From: Ruminococcus sp.
GTDB taxonomy: Bacteria; Bacillota; Clostridia; Oscillospirales; Ruminococcaceae
Direction: 5' to 3'
DNA: 64,000 nt
Assembly (NCBI GenBank): GCA_017519145.1
Contig: JAFWTA010000030.1
Location: 124,001-188,000 of the forward strand
Part shown: positions 43,067 through 49,817 of the stretch, piece by piece
Numbering within the stretch: the stretch's first letter is position 1
Layout of the letters: every line of letters starts with the position of its first letter
Program-made: the position numbers and the translations under genes
Notes under the pieces: model-generated
Database searches by the model: none
Told to the model about the DNA's origin: nothing
Seen by the model: the letters and a program-made list of their open reading frames with translations, nothing else

Positions 43067-43531
43067 ATGAAGCAAATGGGAAACATCATCATGTTGCCCA
43101 TAGGCTATGTTAAAAACAATGTTTCTGAAAAGAAATACACAGCATGGGGCGACGATATATCATCTATCATACTTAAATCCGAATACTGTACGGGTCTGAC
43201 AGGACTTGAGGACTTTTCCCACGCGACAATACTGTTTTACCTTGACAAAGCCGACTATATCAAAGAAAGACATTTGCAGAGAAGACCTCAGAACCGCGAG
43301 GAAATGCCGGCAGTTGGTATATTTTCGCAACGCTGCAAGGACAGAGCTAATCAAATCGGAATAACTTCGGTTGAAATAATATCTGTATCAGATGATAAGC
43401 TTGTCGTAAAAGGACTTGACGCAGTGGACGGAACACCCGTTCTTGATATAAAGCCCTATTATCCTGTTTATGATAAAAAGGAAGCCAAAGTGCCCGAATG
43501 GGTGGATAAATTAATAGAAAAGTATTTCTGA
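43067..43531 (+). CDS. trmO: tRNA (t6A37) N6-methyltransferase, TrmO/TsaA family
   Basis: 154 residues or slightly fewer. The family methylates N6-threonylcarbamoyladenosine 37 of tRNA using SAM. Signatures: PIGYVKNN start, LTGLEDFSHATILFYLDKA, RRPQNREEMPAVGIFSQRCKDRANQIGIT (shown here in part) and LDAVDGTPVLDIKPYYP. Three in-frame ATGs (43067, 43076, 43091) compete and none has a clean ribosome-binding site; homology favours one of the later two. Confidence 0.87.
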   Translation: MKQMGNIIMLPIGYVKNNVSEKKYTAWGDDISSIILKSEYCTGLTGLEDFSHATILFYLDKADYIKERHLQRRPQNREEMPAVGIFSQRCKDRANQIGITSVEIISVSDDKLVVKGLDAVDGTPVLDIKPYYPVYDKKEAKVPEWVDKLIEKYF

Positions 43532-43585: not shown

Positions 43586-44806
43586 TCACTTAAATACTGC
43601 AAGCAGGAATCCAGCTGCGATAGCAGAACCGATAACACCTGCTACGTTTGGTCCCATAGCGTGCATGAGCAGGAAGTTTGAGGGATTAGCCTTCTGACCT
43701 TCCATCTGCGATACACGGGCAGCCATAGGAACGGCTGAAACACCTGCAGAACCGATAAGAGGATTGATCTTGCCGCCTGAAAGCTTATACATGATCTTTC
43801 CGACGAGAAGTCCGCCGATAGTTGAGAATGCAAATGCTGTAAGACCAAGAACGATGATCTTTATGGTCTCAAGTGAGAGGAATCTGTCAGCAGCTGTTGT
43901 TGCGCCAACGGAAATTCCAAGGAAAACAGTTACGATGTTCATAAGAGCATTCTGAACTGTGTCTGAAAGTCTCTCTGTAACTCCACATTCTCTCCAGAGA
44001 TTACCAAGCATAAGACAGCCTACGAGAGGAGCTGTTGAAGGGAGAAGAAGAATTACGAACATAGCAACGATTATAGGGAAGATGATCTTCTCTGTCTTTG
44101 TTACGACACGAGTCTGCTCCATCTTTACTTCTCTTTCCTTCTTTGTGGTGAGAAGTCTCATGAGAGGAGGCTGTATCATGGGGATAAGAGCCATGTAAGA
44201 GTAAGCTGCGATAGCTATAGGTCCGAGGAGCTCAGGAGCCAGCTTAGTTGTAAGGAAGATAGCTGTAGGACCATCTGCACCGCCGATGATACCGATAGAT
44301 GCGGCCTGATTTCCACTGAATCCAAGGCATACAGCTCCAAAGAACGCAAGGAATACACCCATCTGAGCAGCAGCTCCGAGGAGAAGGCTCTTAGGATTTG
44401 AGATAAGAGGACCGAAATCTGTCATAGCGCCAACACCCATGAATATGAGTGAAGGATAGATACCTGCCTTGACGCCTATGTAGAGAATATCAAGAAGTCC
44501 GCCATGAGCCATGATCGCTCCGTAGCTGTGGTAATCCTGATGCTCAGGGTCAAGGAAGTTGTCCCAGAGGTCCATGTGATAAAGTGCATCGGAAGTATCT
44601 CCGCCTGTGAAGTAAGACAGATTTACAAGGAGACAGCCGAATGCGATACCAACAAGAAGAAGAGGCTCAAACTTCTTCTTGATACCAAGATAAAGGAGGA
44701 CGCAGGAAATAAGGATCATTATAAGATTCTTCCAGCCTCCATCAATGAGAAAGCTGTGGAATCCCGAGCTTTCCCAGAGAGTCTTTAGGGTTTCAAGTAT
44801 ATCCAT
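43586..44806 (-). CDS. oadB: Na+-translocating decarboxylase subunit beta
   Basis: 406 residues, about ten transmembrane helices; the channel and pump part of oxaloacetate-type decarboxylases, which decarboxylates carboxybiotin and exports Na+. The essential Asp motif GIIGGADGPTAIF (equivalent to Asp203 of Klebsiella OadB) and the C-terminal GLVSAVPMAARV-like segment (GSAGVSAVPMAARVSQ) are intact. Last gene of the four-gene operon, 12 nt after the biotin-carrier gene. Confidence 0.94.
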   Translation of the reverse strand: MDILETLKTLWESSGFHSFLIDGGWKNLIMILISCVLLYLGIKKKFEPLLLVGIAFGCLLVNLSYFTGGDTSDALYHMDLWDNFLDPEHQDYHSYGAIMAHGGLLDILYIGVKAGIYPSLIFMGVGAMTDFGPLISNPKSLLLGAAAQMGVFLAFFGAVCLGFSGNQAASIGIIGGADGPTAIFLTTKLAPELLGPIAIAAYSYMALIPMIQPPLMRLLTTKKEREVKMEQTRVVTKTEKIIFPIIVAMFVILLLPSTAPLVGCLMLGNLWRECGVTERLSDTVQNALMNIVTVFLGISVGATTAADRFLSLETIKIIVLGLTAFAFSTIGGLLVGKIMYKLSGGKINPLIGSAGVSAVPMAARVSQMEGQKANPSNFLLMHAMGPNVAGVIGSAIAAGFLLAVFK

Positions 44807-44818
44807 TTCAAGTCCTCC

Positions 44819-45220
44819 TTATGCGATAACAACCAGAGGAGCGCCTGTATCTACAACAGAACCCTTGCTTGTAACTACCTGAGCAACGGTACCGTCCTTA
44901 GGAGCTACTATCTCATTTTCCATCTTCATAGCCTCGAGGATAACGAGGATCTGACCAGCCTTAACAGCATCGCCCTTTGCAACGTCAACTCTGATGATGT
45001 TTCCGGGCATAGGAGCTGTTACCGTCTCGCCTGCTGCAAGATCAACAGGTGCTGCAGGTGCAGGAGCGGGAGCAGCTGCGGCAGCAGGTGCAGCAGCAAC
45101 AGGAGCAGCGGCTGCTGCGGGAGCGGGTGCAAGTGCCTCATATTCATCAAGCAGAACAGCTTTTCCCTGCTCTACCTCAACTTCATAGGTTTTGCCGTTA
45201 AGAGTTACTTTATACTTCAT
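44819..45220 (-). CDS. Biotin carrier protein of the decarboxylase
   Basis: 133 residues. A short N-terminal domain (KYKVTLNGKTYEVEVEQG), an Ala/Pro-rich flexible linker (about 31-60) and a C-terminal biotinyl domain with the biotinylation lysine in EAMKMENEIVAP (near 99). It shuttles the carboxyl group from OadA to OadB. The separate carrier instead of an OadA-fused domain is common in Clostridia. Confidence 0.93.
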   Translation of the reverse strand: MKYKVTLNGKTYEVEVEQGKAVLLDEYEALAPAPAAAAAPVAAAPAAAAAPAPAPAAPVDLAAGETVTAPMPGNIIRVDVAKGDAVKAGQILVILEAMKMENEIVAPKDGTVAQVVTSKGSVVDTGAPLVVIA

Positions 45221-45222
45221 GA

Positions 45223-45606
45223 TTATTTGACCTCCTTAATGGAAATAAAGTGCAGCTCATTGAGCGGCTTCTGCATTTTATCGGCAACTATAGCCATTAT
45301 CATTGCAGCTTCCTTATCAGGAACGTCAAAGAGCTTAACATGACCTGCTGAACCGGGAGCAAGAGGGAGCTCCTTTTCGGCTTCCGGAGCAGTCTCGGGA
45401 ACTGCCTTCTTTGCAGCTTCTGCATTAGCGCTTTCCTTTGCATTCTTTGACTTGAAGTAAGCACCTGTGCAATAAAGAACTATCATCAGAAAAACAAGTC
45501 CGCAGAAAACTACACAGTAACCGAATACAGCAGTTATAGCCGCATCGCCGATAGACATTTCCTTTACGTTTTCGGCAGCAGCAATAAAAAAGTTTGAATC
45601 AAACAT
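45223..45606 (-). CDS. oadG: Decarboxylase gamma/delta-type membrane subunit
   Basis: 127 residues. One N-terminal transmembrane helix (TAVFGYCVVFCGLVFLMIVLYC), an acidic Pro/Ala/Glu linker and a C-terminal domain ending LNELHFISIKEVK, where a small regulatory or Zn-binding role is known for OadG relatives. It anchors the alpha subunit to OadB. Position between oadA and the carrier gene is the usual one. Confidence 0.85.
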   Translation of the reverse strand: MFDSNFFIAAAENVKEMSIGDAAITAVFGYCVVFCGLVFLMIVLYCTGAYFKSKNAKESANAEAAKKAVPETAPEAEKELPLAPGSAGHVKLFDVPDKEAAMIMAIVADKMQKPLNELHFISIKEVK

Positions 45607-45618
45607 AACTCTGCCTCC

Positions 45619-47016
45619 TTACATTTCCTCAATGGTGTAAACAGCTTCGTTTTCTTCCTTAGCCTTGCGGTCCTTGAGGAAATTGAGTGTCTGGTCGGGA
45701 TAGCAGATGTAGCTCATTACATCCTCTTCGCTGCGGCAGAGATCTCCGAGAGCTTCTCTTGCAGCAGTGAACTCCTCGCCTGTTCTCTTCTGGTCTTCGA
45801 TACGGCAGTCAACAGCTTCACTGTCTCCGAGTACCTTTTCAACGAGCTCCTGTGCGATAGGTGCAGGAGGATTACCGTACTCGCCCTTTATGTAGTTCTT
45901 GATCTCCTTGGAGATATTCTTGTATCTTTCGCCAACAAGCACATTTGTTACAGCCTGATTTCCTACCATCTGAGAGAGAGGTGTAACAAGCGGAGGATAG
46001 CCCATGTCTGCTCTTACCTTCGGGATCTCGGCAAGAGCCTCATCAAATCTGTCCATTGCGTGCATATCTGTGAGGTTAGCGATCATGTTTGAAAGCATAC
46101 CGCCGGGAACCTTGTAAACCAGTGCCTGAGCATCTGTACCGAGGCTCTTGGGATTGAGCTGACCGTTGTCGATGTACTTCTGCTTGATGGGCTTGAAATA
46201 ATCGTTTACCTTATTGATGATGTCCTCGTCAAGACCTGTCTCGATACCGTACTGGCTGAGAGCATAGAACATACTCTCTGTAGCAGGCTGTGAAGTACCG
46301 CCTGAGAAGCATGATGTTGCACAGTCGATAACATCGATACCGGACTCAATAGCCTTTGTGAGAGTCATGTAAGCCATACCTGTTGTGCAGTGAGTATGGA
46401 GAATAAGAGTCATATCACCGATAGCATCCTTGATGCCCTTGATAAGGTGCTCAGCCTCATAAGGAGACATGGTGCCTGCCATATCCTTGAGGCAGATGGT
46501 ATCAAAGCCCATTTTCTGGAGCTCCTTACACATCTCGATATACTTGTCTACTGTATGTACAGGGCTCTGAGTATATGAGATACATCCTGAAGCTATAGTC
46601 TTTTCTGTTGCATACTTCTTTGTAGCATTAAGAGCTGTCTCAATGTTTCTGAAGTCATTGAGAGCATCGAAAATACGGATAACATCGATGCCGTTCTTTA
46701 TAGACAGTTCAATGAACTTTTCAACTACATCGTCGTGATAGTGCTTATATCCCAGAAGGTTCTGACCTCTGAGAAGCATCTGAAGTCTGCTGTTGGGAAG
46801 ATTTTTCCTCAGATTGCGAAGCCTCTCCCACGGGTCTTCACCGAGATAACGAAGACAGGAGTCAAATGTTGCTCCGCCCCAGCACTCGATAGAATAGTAG
46901 CCTGCCTTGTCCATATCAGAGAGAATACCCTCATAATCGGAATATGGCAGACGCGTAGCCATCAGTGACTGATTGGCGTCACGCAATACGGTTTCTGTCA
47001 GTTGCACTTTTTTCAT
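45619..47016 (-). CDS. oadA: Oxaloacetate decarboxylase alpha subunit (carboxyltransferase)
   Basis: About 465 residues; transfers the carboxyl of oxaloacetate to biotin. TETVLRDANQSLMATRL starts the HMGL-like TIM barrel; Zn2+ ligands in LHTHCTTGMAY, the catalytic Lys in CLKDMAGTMSP, ECWGGATFDSCLR and LLRGQNLLGY are the family's. The C-terminal biotin domain is missing because it is a separate gene here. The start is the ATG at 47014-47016, 7 nt after GAGGAGG; a TTG lies 6 nt upstream. It opens the operon. A pyruvate carboxylase partner reading is possible but oadB and oadG argue for the Na+ pump. Confidence 0.94.
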   Translation of the reverse strand: MKKVQLTETVLRDANQSLMATRLPYSDYEGILSDMDKAGYYSIECWGGATFDSCLRYLGEDPWERLRNLRKNLPNSRLQMLLRGQNLLGYKHYHDDVVEKFIELSIKNGIDVIRIFDALNDFRNIETALNATKKYATEKTIASGCISYTQSPVHTVDKYIEMCKELQKMGFDTICLKDMAGTMSPYEAEHLIKGIKDAIGDMTLILHTHCTTGMAYMTLTKAIESGIDVIDCATSCFSGGTSQPATESMFYALSQYGIETGLDEDIINKVNDYFKPIKQKYIDNGQLNPKSLGTDAQALVYKVPGGMLSNMIANLTDMHAMDRFDEALAEIPKVRADMGYPPLVTPLSQMVGNQAVTNVLVGERYKNISKEIKNYIKGEYGNPPAPIAQELVEKVLGDSEAVDCRIEDQKRTGEEFTAAREALGDLCRSEEDVMSYICYPDQTLNFLKDRKAKEENEAVYTIEEM

Positions 47017-47082
47017 GTACAAGCCTCCTCAAAATAAATCTGCATAGCAGAAAAAATATACTGAAAATTTGATCGGTAAAAG

Positions 47083-47249: not shown

Positions 47250-49817
47250 TCACATTGAGTCGATAAACTCTTTTATTGAACGCTCCGCGGCTTCGTATCT
47301 CTTTCTGAATTCCGTGGCAGAGATCCTCATAGCACCGTTTCCGAGAATTATCATCTGCTCAAGGCCATCGGAGGTAGCTACTCTTACCCTGTGTTTCTTT
47401 GAAAGCTCATGAGTAACTCTCTCTATATAGGAATCCGCTGTCTCCGACTCTTTTGTATATACTATATTAATATTGCAGTATTTCTCAACTTCGCGGTGCT
47501 TGCCCTTTACTCTGTAAGCATCAAATACAAGTATGAGCTCACAGCCGGCATAGCCCTGATAGTTGCACATACGGTTGATAAGCTCCCCCCTTGCCGCATC
47601 AAGATTGTCCTCTGCTATTTTTTTCAAGTCTTCCCATGCAAAGATAATATTGTATCCGTCCACAAGAAGATAATCAGGTCCCTCATATTTTGGAAGCCTT
47701 ACCTTTTTGTCGTCAATGGATACAACCTTTGTCTTCTTGAAGGCTTTATGAGGATCACGGTTGATCTTGCCGTAGGTTCGCTCGAATATTTCCATGAGCT
47801 CTTCATCACTGACAGCCTTTTCAATAAACCTCTGAGCTTTGTTTTTTCTTGCCTCGGGAGCCTCATCATCTTCGTTCTCATCAAGACTAAGCGGCAGATG
47901 CATATGATCGTACACCACATCCCATTTCACGAGATAACCTGCTCCGTGTGAACAGAATACGGAATCTGCGCTGTTTTCAATATCATTATCAGCCGAATAA
48001 CCTATTGAGCTTATTATTTCATCGGCGTTGTGACATTCCTTGTATCCTCCAAGAGAAAGTGACAGCTTGCCTTTTCCGTGAGTATAGGCAATTATATCTG
48101 CCTGATAGCTGCTCATTTCCGACACAGGAGCACTTCCCCTGATCACAGAACTCTCACCTATACTTTCAGGAGTTTCAAACTCGGCGCACATACGCTGAAG
48201 ATCAGATATCGTTCTTCCCACATTTTCTGTCGGAACTTCGATCTCATAGTCATAATACGGCTCCAGAAGCACAGACTCTGCCATTCTGAGTCCCTGCCTT
48301 ATGGCGCGGTAAGTAGCCTGTCGGAAGTCGCCTCCCTCGGTATGCTTCAGATGAGCCTTTCCTTTTACAAGAGTCAGCTTTATATCTGTTACCGGAGAGC
48401 CGGTAAGAACTCCAAGGTGAGTTTTTTCTTTGATATGTGTAAGAATAAGCCTCTGCCAATTCCTGTCAAGTTCATCTTCGGGACACACAGTATCGATTAC
48501 TATGCCGCTTCCCCGAGGCAATGGTTCCAAAAGAATGTGTGCCTCGGCATAATGGCGCAGCGGTTCATAATGGCCGACACCCTCTACAGTATTCCGAATT
48601 GTTTCCCTGTAGGTGACCGCTCCGTCCATGAATCCGATATCGAAGCCGAATTTTTCAGCGATAAGCCTTGTAAGCACCTCTGTCTGAACTGCTCCCATAA
48701 GCTGAATGTGTATCTCTCTATTCTGTTCATTCCATAGAATATGCAGCTGAGGGTCCTGATCCTCAAGCATACGAAGCTCCTTCAAGGCTTCATATACGTT
48801 CTTGCCATCGGGCAAAGAAACACGGTAAGTCATTACAGGTTCAAGGGAGGCGCCATCAGAGTTCTTTTCTGCGCCAATGCCCTGACCTGCATATGTGCCT
48901 GTGAGTCCGGTTACAGCAAGCACCTCACCTGCTTCGGCTGATTCTGCCGTTCTGAACTTCTCTCCGGTATAGAATCTTATAGAACTTACCTTTGCGTTGA
49001 TGACATTTCCATCCTGATCGCTATAGCTCAGATCATCACGCATTTTCAGCCCGCCGCCGGTTATCTTCATATGTGTAAGACGGCTGCCTTTGGAGTCATA
49101 GGATATCTTATAGACCTTAGCACCGAACTCATCGCCGTATTTCTTCTCCATAGTATATCTGCTCAAAACTTCGATAAACTCCTCCACGCCCTGCATTTTC
49201 AATGCAGAGCCAAAGAAGCACGGAAATATCTGCCTGTGTGCAATTGCTTCGGATATAATACTGTCGCTCAGGGCTCCTGAGACAAGATATTGTTCCATCA
49301 GTTCTTCGCAGCAGGTCGCACAGTCCTCGGCAATACTATCGGTGTCACCTGTGAAGTCTACGCACTTATCGGAAAGTTCCTTTCTAAGCCTTTCTGTAAG
49401 ATGAGCTTTGTCGGCACCGATAAGATCCATCTTGTTTACAAAAATAAAAACAGGGATATTGTATTTGCAGAGAAGTTTCCATAAAGTTGTGGTGTGGCTC
49501 TGGACACCGTCAGTTCCGCTGATAACAAGGACCGCGTAGTCAAGCACCTGCATTGTCCTCTCTGTTTCTGTGGAAAAGTCAACGTGCCCGGGAGTATCAA
49601 GCAGAGTAAACGAAGTTCCAGCCGCAGAAAACTCTGCCTGAGAAGAAAAAATTGTAATTCCCCTCTCACGCTCTATTGAATTTGTATCAAGTGTGGAATT
49701 GCCGCGGTCTACTCTTCCGAGACTGCGGATAGCTCCCGATGTATAAAGCATTGCTTCCGCAAGAGTTGTCTTTCCCGAATCAACATGAGCGGTTATGCCT
49801 ATAATAATGTTTTTCAT
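47250..49817 (-). CDS. EF-G/Tet(M)-like translation GTPase fused to NYN (YacP/Rae1-like) nuclease domain
   Basis: 855 residues against about 640 for Tet(M)/Tet(O). Residues 1-650 form a five-domain EF-G-like factor: G1 AHVDSGKTT (10-18), G2 ERGITI, G3 DTPGHVDF, G4 NKMD, then domains II-V, including YEIEVPTENVGRTISDL and GYLVKWDVVYDHMHL near the end. After a charged linker (~650-715) comes an NYN/PIN-like domain (717-855) with LLVDGYNIIFAW (Asp720), LILVFDAYRV (Asp766), ESETADSYIE (Asp795) and VATSDGLEQ (Asp817), matching the YacP family. B. subtilis YacP (Rae1) is a ribosome-associated endonuclease that cuts mRNA at the A site, the same place Tet(M)-like factors occupy. The fusion therefore suggests a GTPase that delivers an A-site nuclease. 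Tetracycline protection is possible but not demonstrated. Confidence 0.88.
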   Translation of the reverse strand: MKNIIIGITAHVDSGKTTLAEAMLYTSGAIRSLGRVDRGNSTLDTNSIERERGITIFSSQAEFSAAGTSFTLLDTPGHVDFSTETERTMQVLDYAVLVISGTDGVQSHTTTLWKLLCKYNIPVFIFVNKMDLIGADKAHLTERLRKELSDKCVDFTGDTDSIAEDCATCCEELMEQYLVSGALSDSIISEAIAHRQIFPCFFGSALKMQGVEEFIEVLSRYTMEKKYGDEFGAKVYKISYDSKGSRLTHMKITGGGLKMRDDLSYSDQDGNVINAKVSSIRFYTGEKFRTAESAEAGEVLAVTGLTGTYAGQGIGAEKNSDGASLEPVMTYRVSLPDGKNVYEALKELRMLEDQDPQLHILWNEQNREIHIQLMGAVQTEVLTRLIAEKFGFDIGFMDGAVTYRETIRNTVEGVGHYEPLRHYAEAHILLEPLPRGSGIVIDTVCPEDELDRNWQRLILTHIKEKTHLGVLTGSPVTDIKLTLVKGKAHLKHTEGGDFRQATYRAIRQGLRMAESVLLEPYYDYEIEVPTENVGRTISDLQRMCAEFETPESIGESSVIRGSAPVSEMSSYQADIIAYTHGKGKLSLSLGGYKECHNADEIISSIGYSADNDIENSADSVFCSHGAGYLVKWDVVYDHMHLPLSLDENEDDEAPEARKNKAQRFIEKAVSDEELMEIFERTYGKINRDPHKAFKKTKVVSIDDKKVRLPKYEGPDYLLVDGYNIIFAWEDLKKIAEDNLDAARGELINRMCNYQGYAGCELILVFDAYRVKGKHREVEKYCNINIVYTKESETADSYIERVTHELSKKHRVRVATSDGLEQMIILGNGAMRISATEFRKRYEAAERSIKEFIDSM

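Follow-up and report, generated by a model that had tools for sequence, protein, structure and literature searches.

A translational GTPase fused to a YacP/Rae1-type nuclease domain in Ruminococcus, and its distribution relative to free yacP

A gene of Ruminococcus sp. that joins a translational GTPase to a nuclease domain of the NYN_YacP family was analyzed. It lies in a stretch of 64,000 nucleotides (assembly GCA_017519145.1, contig JAFWTA010000030.1, positions 124,001 to 188,000), which is called the window below. An 855-codon open frame spans positions 47250-49817 exactly, on the minus strand, with its start at 49817; on the plus strand of the same interval the longest listed open reading frame has 219 aa. 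A sequence-only reading of the window had proposed one 855-residue frame combining a GTPase and a NYN domain. This was borne out by Pfam matches for both halves, and the motifs cited for the GTPase half (AHVDSGKTT, DTPGHVDF and NKMD) were all found. Residues 1-597 correspond to a factor of the EF-G/Tet(M) type, and are followed by a tail up to residue 640, a linker up to about residue 714 and a YacP-type NYN domain at 717-852. Assignment to the translational GTPases relies on the G1, G3 and G4 motifs and on the presence of domains IV and V. The features are distributed as follows:

47250..49817, minus strand: whole gene, translational GTPase, linker and NYN_YacP nuclease, 855 aa
49823..49827, minus strand: possible ribosome-binding site GGGAG upstream of the ATG, read by eye
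49152..49811, minus strand: G domain, residues 3-222, with AHVDSGKTT, DTPGHVDF and NKMD (PF00009 GTP_EFTU, 6.7e-51)
48894..49124, minus strand: domain II, residues 232-308, under the Pfam cut-off (PF22042, 22.2 bits vs 27)
48636..48842, minus strand: domain III, residues 326-394, under the Pfam cut-off (PF14492, 20.6 bits vs 27)
48279..48620, minus strand: domain IV, residues 400-513 (PF03764 EFG_IV)
48321..48356, minus strand: tip of domain IV loop III, residues 488-499, AHLKHTEGGDFR, a subfamily signature; Tet(M) is of the SPVSTPADFR type there
48027..48272, minus strand: domain V, residues 516-597 (PF00679 EFG_C)
47898..48026, minus strand: subfamily tail, residues 598-640, SVFCSHGAGYLVKW...MH
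47676..47897, minus strand: linker, residues 641-714, with the motif ELxxIFxxTYG
47262..47675, minus strand: NYN_YacP nuclease domain, residues 715-852 (PF05991 match at 717-852)
47658..47660, minus strand: codon of Asp720, equivalent to Rae1 Asp7
47520..47522, minus strand: codon of Asp766, equivalent to Rae1 Asp53
47433..47435, minus strand: codon of Asp795, equivalent to Rae1 Asp81
47367..47369, minus strand: codon of Asp817, equivalent to Rae1 Asp104

The assignment of the C-terminal half, which the sequence-only reading had left to a profile search, was confirmed: NYN_YacP (PF05991) matches at 7.1e-49, with 166.4 bits for a cut-off of 24.6. The nearest solved structures by sequence are those of YacP/Rae1 (PDB 5mq8 and 5mq9), with 59 identical residues among 135 aligned positions (43.7%). 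The YacP-like placement claimed for Asp720, Asp766, Asp795 and Asp817 was confirmed by the alignment, in which they face Asp7, Asp53, Asp81 and Asp104 of Rae1, and Asn723 is aligned too. The four aligned aspartates are, we assume, the catalytic residues of Rae1.

Close relatives were then collected from genome contigs (at least 591 relatives among at least 595 pattern matches), and 80 loci were retained; the closest among the matches listed carry the name Ruminococcus flavefaciens. The fusion is an uninterrupted single frame in 79 of these 80 loci. The exception, L043, contains stops and was left out of the aligned rows, which therefore number 80 with the window. The four aspartates are invariant in all 80 rows; so are Asn723 and, within the tip, Ala488, His489 and Lys491 to Arg499. 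Compared with the near relative L041, the GTPase half shows a dN of 0.065 and a dS of 1.08 (dN/dS about 0.06), and the NYN half a dN of 0.019 and a dS of 0.55 (about 0.03), so that both halves look to be under purifying selection. A comparison with L002, made on a protein-guided alignment, gives dS values that are high to saturated.

We examined how the fusion and free yacP are distributed among genomes. The genome of the window contains one NYN_YacP, the one within the fusion; a separate yacP, which the sequence-only reading had suggested looking for, was not found by the NYN_YacP profile search in this assembly, which is 94.44% complete. An above-cut-off NYN_YacP is present in 56 of 118 genomes of the family, in 53 cases within frames of at least 842 aa, and in the remaining three (G006, G009, G083) within frames of 202-348 aa. 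At the level of the class, 191 of 293 genomes have such a match, and the frames fall into two size groups, 160-216 aa and at least 618 aa, with six intermediate; frames of 841-953 aa occur in 95 genomes, that of the window included. The fusion was counted in 103 class genomes and free yacP in 87, one of them having both (G398). The 103 comprise 99 genomes with frames of at least 600 aa and four (G161, G272, G288, G349) with frames of 295-376 aa, counted as (broken) fusions because the GTPase is present in each genome; two genomes, G301 and G400, were left unassigned, and the tally of 104 with neither form includes them.

Fusion and free yacP exclude each other almost completely. The fusion occurs without free yacP in 102 of the 293 class genomes, and the single co-occurrence compares with 30.6 expected under independence (Fisher 3.8e-19, kinship being ignored). 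This tendency is visible within families: in each of f22, f23, f27, f28 and f47 some genomes have the fusion alone, others free yacP alone, and no genome has the two together; a sixth family, f51, includes G398. A second yacP in family f27 was considered and rejected, the extra matches (G237, G290, G324) reaching about 21 bits, under the cut-off. Of 249 genomes sampled at the level of the phylum, some of them shared with the class set, none has both forms; in this sample, above-cut-off frames of at least 842 aa were found in 16 genomes and frames of 269-349 aa in four, and the sole genome with two matches, G605, carries two free copies. The surroundings of the two forms differ as well. Free yacP adjoins rlmB, as in B. 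subtilis, in 19 of the 24 best-scoring loci of the 87 free-yacP genomes. No rlmB was found next to the fused gene in any of three sets of loci (0/6, 0/20 and 0/80, that is 0/106) within the available flanks. The window's own genome has rlmB (L164) on another contig, with no yacP-like frame adjoining.

Phylogenetic trees were built with FastTree for each half, the fused genomes sampled being those of the class. The NYN tree (58 domains over 170 columns: 32 fused, 2 in broken or cut frames, 24 free) contains one split that sets fused domains apart from free ones, with support 0.93, or 0.94 without two long branches; the placement of L150 and L151 in it is unstable. These two are divergent fusions on long branches, and in L151 neither the Gly-Gly nor the initial His of the tip is present. 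The fused side includes a single free copy, L099 (1483-2004; genome G325), perhaps a split-off from a fusion; no rlmB was seen in its flank, and G325 also has an unfused GTPase of the other clade. The GTPase tree has 57 rows: 28 fused, 23 unfused, 2 EF-G-type proteins of the window's own genome and 4 resistance proteins, namely three of Tet(M)/Tet(S)/Tet(O/W/32/O) and one TetB(P), Tet(Q), Tet(T), Tet(36) and OtrA being absent. L153 was dropped for its broken frame, whereas L142, truncated by a contig end, and L132, which has a short start, were retained. Fused rows cluster together with one unfused intruder, L112 (5977-7920), a plasmid copy of Ligilactobacillus salivarius annotated as tetracycline resistance (node support 0.88), in which secondary loss of the NYN domain is likely. 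As far as the sampled trees reach, both fit a single fusion event, followed by NYN loss in Ligilactobacillus and by occasional splitting.

The GTPase half was compared with established families of translation factors. The tetracycline-protection model NF012153 of NCBIfam (tet_protect) gives 417.7 bits and the EF-G model TIGR00484 279.3 bits, so that neither cut-off is reached (775 and 659.4, respectively). Unfused relatives score 457.6, 422.0 and 374.0 bits on the former model, a divergent fusion 308.6, and the Tet(M) of L154 877.4. Fused and unfused relatives form one clade (support 0.985) apart from the four resistance proteins. They also share the tail after domain V, which reads SVFC..G.G..V.W...MH with variations and is not seen in the three Tet rows displayed or in EF-G rows. 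The tip of domain IV reads H-x-K-H-T-x-G-G-D-F in the window protein, whereas the four resistance proteins have Y/F-S-P-V/A-S-T-P-A-D-F. Within the subfamily, His489 is found in 27/28 fused and 22/23 unfused rows, Lys491 in 27/28 and 21/23, His-Thr 492-493 in 51/51, and Gly-Gly 495-496 in 27/28 and 23/23; EF-G-type rows have the initial His and the final Phe as well. A passage of PMC7456112 describes Pro509 at the Tet(M) tip as overlapping tetracycline. No subfamily row (0/51) has proline at this position, and the SPxSTPADF context is present in 4/4 resistance proteins. Against this argument from the tip, Tet(M) can tolerate S508A/P509A/V510A, according to PMC4750697. By sequence, then, the GTPase half belongs to a subfamily distinct from both EF-G and Tet(M), and is not a tetracycline-protection protein. 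The drug-protection component of the sequence-only reading thus finds no support, given the family cut-off, the separate clade and the lack of drug-clashing loop III residues.

The reading that we prefer, with a confidence only a little above even, is that the fusion protein would be these cells' Rae1/YacP, a ribosome-dependent mRNA endonuclease fused to its own translational GTPase. The main evidence is the mutual exclusion of fusion and free yacP. The comparisons as a whole suggest a housekeeping factor that replaced the free nuclease, rather than tetracycline resistance. Of the sequence-only proposal that an A-site nuclease is delivered to stalled ribosomes, the delivery gains indirect support from this exclusion, and drug protection is set aside. 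On a stalled ribosome whose A site is empty, the GTPase half would bind the factor site, insert domain IV and hydrolyse GTP; the NYN domain, on its linker of about 75 residues, would then cut the mRNA in or beside the A site, and the shortened message would be open to rescue by tmRNA, which this genome encodes (157 bits). Tet(M)-type factors bind the A site too (PMC7456112), and since both parts need this site, sequential steps are more likely than simultaneous ones: the GTPase may recognise the vacant stalled site, hydrolyse GTP and withdraw or shift, upon which the tethered nuclease would enter. More tentatively, this single protein could be a bacterial counterpart of no-go decay in eukaryotes: a dedicated GTPase would sense the stalled empty A site and, on hydrolysing GTP, pass it to the tethered nuclease, which would cut the message ahead of rescue by tmRNA; this extension we regard as possible and rather doubtful.

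Several observations weigh against a GTPase-guided Rae1. The two activities would compete for the A site. The NYN match is not full length, covering profile positions 1-138 or 1-145 of 166, and the C-terminal piece of Rae1 (the last 20-30 positions or so) is absent; the Rae1 substitution R166P, in this piece, was an efp suppressor, which PMC6613710 groups with losses of Rae1 function. The absent C-terminus could mean that the GTPase has partly taken over docking, and fused copies of some other genomes keep it, extending to positions 163-166. Neither form is present in 102-104 of the 293 class genomes, so that the function is dispensable. A functional tie before fusion appears weak: free yacP is only somewhat more frequent in genomes with the unfused GTPase (13/19) than in others (73/171; p 0.05, kinship uncorrected), and in six genomes with the unfused GTPase no NYN was matched. 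An unfused GTPase acting as partner of free yacP was accordingly not retained. In the GTPase tally 122 of 125 genomes were counted, G159, G219, G246 and a second G294 row being dropped as other Tet-type proteins (404-463 bits). Finally, the linker motif ELxxIFxxTYG is not general. Invariant in the first 41 rows and present in 79/79 close relatives, it occurs in only 14/28 diverse fusions, the others having at most a looser counterpart, and in 0/23 unfused rows; it was therefore rejected as a hallmark and as a general hinge.

The alternative that survives best, although we consider it somewhat unlikely, is a fusion for dosage only, which would unite two independent activities, an EF-G-like recycling or back-translocating factor and a Rae1 that acts without it. 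Each half also occurs alone, G398 (the sole genome with both forms above cut-off among the 293) keeps a free yacP beside the fusion, the Ligilactobacillus copy inside the fused clade has lost its NYN, and the linker is some 75 residues long with its motif missing from 14/28 diverse fusions, for which reason the motif was not used against this explanation. However, an operon would suffice for co-regulation, and the fusion is kept without free yacP in 102 class genomes of many families.

PMC4342817 reads the fusion as a tetracycline ribosomal protection protein that has gained an RNase domain, so that domain IV would expel the drug with help from the NYN domain; we find this reading improbable here. 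In its favour, the front half comes closest, among solved structures, to Tet(M) and Tet(O), the top NCBIfam match is tet_protect, loop III is tolerant to sequence change in Tet(M), and records name some relatives "TetM/TetW/TetO/TetS family". One fused relative is recorded as a "translation factor GTPase family protein". It is opposed by the scores, clade and tip described above, and by the genomic context: the gene is single-copy, its contig measures at least 343 kb, only 115 bases separate it from the start of yunB, and its neighbours resemble housekeeping genes. An acquired mobile resistance gene is unsupported for the window. Leader-peptide attenuation, annotated before a tet(M), was likewise not retained, the 115 upstream bases leaving little room for a leader peptide, which was itself not searched for. 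In Agathobacter rectalis the fusion (L161, 4971-7772), named TetM/TetW/TetO/TetS family, is on a record labelled as a 251-kb plasmid and adjoins a BrnT/CopG toxin-antitoxin pair. Ligilactobacillus copies of the unfused GTPase are mostly annotated as Tet, while no annotation was seen for the other unfused members.

The sporulation gene yunB (PF09560; 49933-50589, plus strand) is divergent from the fusion, and was found near it in 21/36 close and 3/44 middle-distance loci. Directly downstream lies a carboxylase-type cluster (43586-47022, minus strand). Its segment 45619-47022 has matches to PYC_OADA and HMGL-like, and the labels for the biotin carrier and the remaining subunits were read by eye. 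This cluster accompanies the fusion in 17-18/36 close and 2-4/44 middle-distance loci. Near it, 43067-43531 (plus strand) encodes a protein in which the N-terminal domain of TrmO, a tRNA methyltransferase, was matched. Overall, nine neighbour proteins were found in 1-21 of 36 close and 0-4 of 44 middle-distance loci, whereas the 20 diverse fused loci and the 20 unfused ones, with flanks of about 3 kb, had none of them.

Slightly less probable again is that the NYN half matures rRNA or tRNA, an earlier proposal cited in PMC4342817, the GTPase half being an assembly factor. The gene rlmB that adjoins free yacP encodes a 23S rRNA methyltransferase, and yacO and rae1 mutations are non-additive according to PMC6613710. 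Characterised Rae1, however, is translation-dependent and destabilises mRNAs (PMC10100781), with a cut site located in S1025 (PMC11780869), and the GTPase carries an EF-G-type domain IV. A frame error or assembly artefact merging two genes, which the sequence-only reading had named as a way to fail, has a negligible probability, the fusion being free of internal stops in 79/80 loci and NYN frames of 841-953 aa recurring in the class.

Occurring in place of free Rae1 in a third or so of the sampled class genomes (102/293), this natural fusion points to a translational GTPase as working partner of Rae1, a partnership that it makes testable. If the comparison with no-go decay is true, free Rae1 of other Firmicutes would be a relative that finds the ribosome without such a partner. 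The results also suggest that a gene named tetracycline resistance in some records is probably a housekeeping gene, which matters for resistance-gene counts.

The protein can be situated among known systems. B. subtilis Rae1/YacP has the same NYN_YacP domain, with the four aspartates and Asn723 aligned. It is a free protein encoded next to yacO/rlmB (a passage of PMC6613710), whereas here the domain is fused, located elsewhere in the genome and shorter at its C-terminus. Tet(M) and Tet(O) (PDB 3j9y and 4v6v) are likewise EF-G-type factors, the Tet(M) of L154 being 30.4% identical over residues 1-592, but differ in the domain IV tip, the C-terminal tail and the clade. Three genes of the genome encode an EF-G domain IV: the fusion and two whose length (693 and 705 aa) is that of EF-G, L157 (EF-G) and L158 (second EF-G-like), labelled from domain match and length. 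These two belong to the same domain IV family and have His at position 489 like the window protein, but their loop III differs (HEVDSSEMAF and HPVDSSEMAF). The unfused GTPases of Ligilactobacillus (L112), class genomes (L114-L133), Paenibacillus (L160) and Subdoligranulum (L163) share the tip signature and have no NYN domain; L112 and L114-L133 are 39.5-46.9% identical to the window protein. The closest precedent is Atkinson 2015 (PMC4342817), where a YacP-like NYN domain is described as acquired by the Tet proteins in ten clostridial species and as possibly an RNase-based resistance mechanism. The architecture has thus been known since 2015, and those proteins very probably belong to the same family. 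For yacP replacement and the non-Tet character of the GTPase we found no earlier description in the open-licence literature, and Condon 2018 could mention the fusion; these two points appear to be what is new beyond PMC4342817. There the fusion is filed as a Tet protein with a conjectured RNase resistance; here its GTPase half does not pass as a Tet protein, and genomes have the fusion where others have free yacP.

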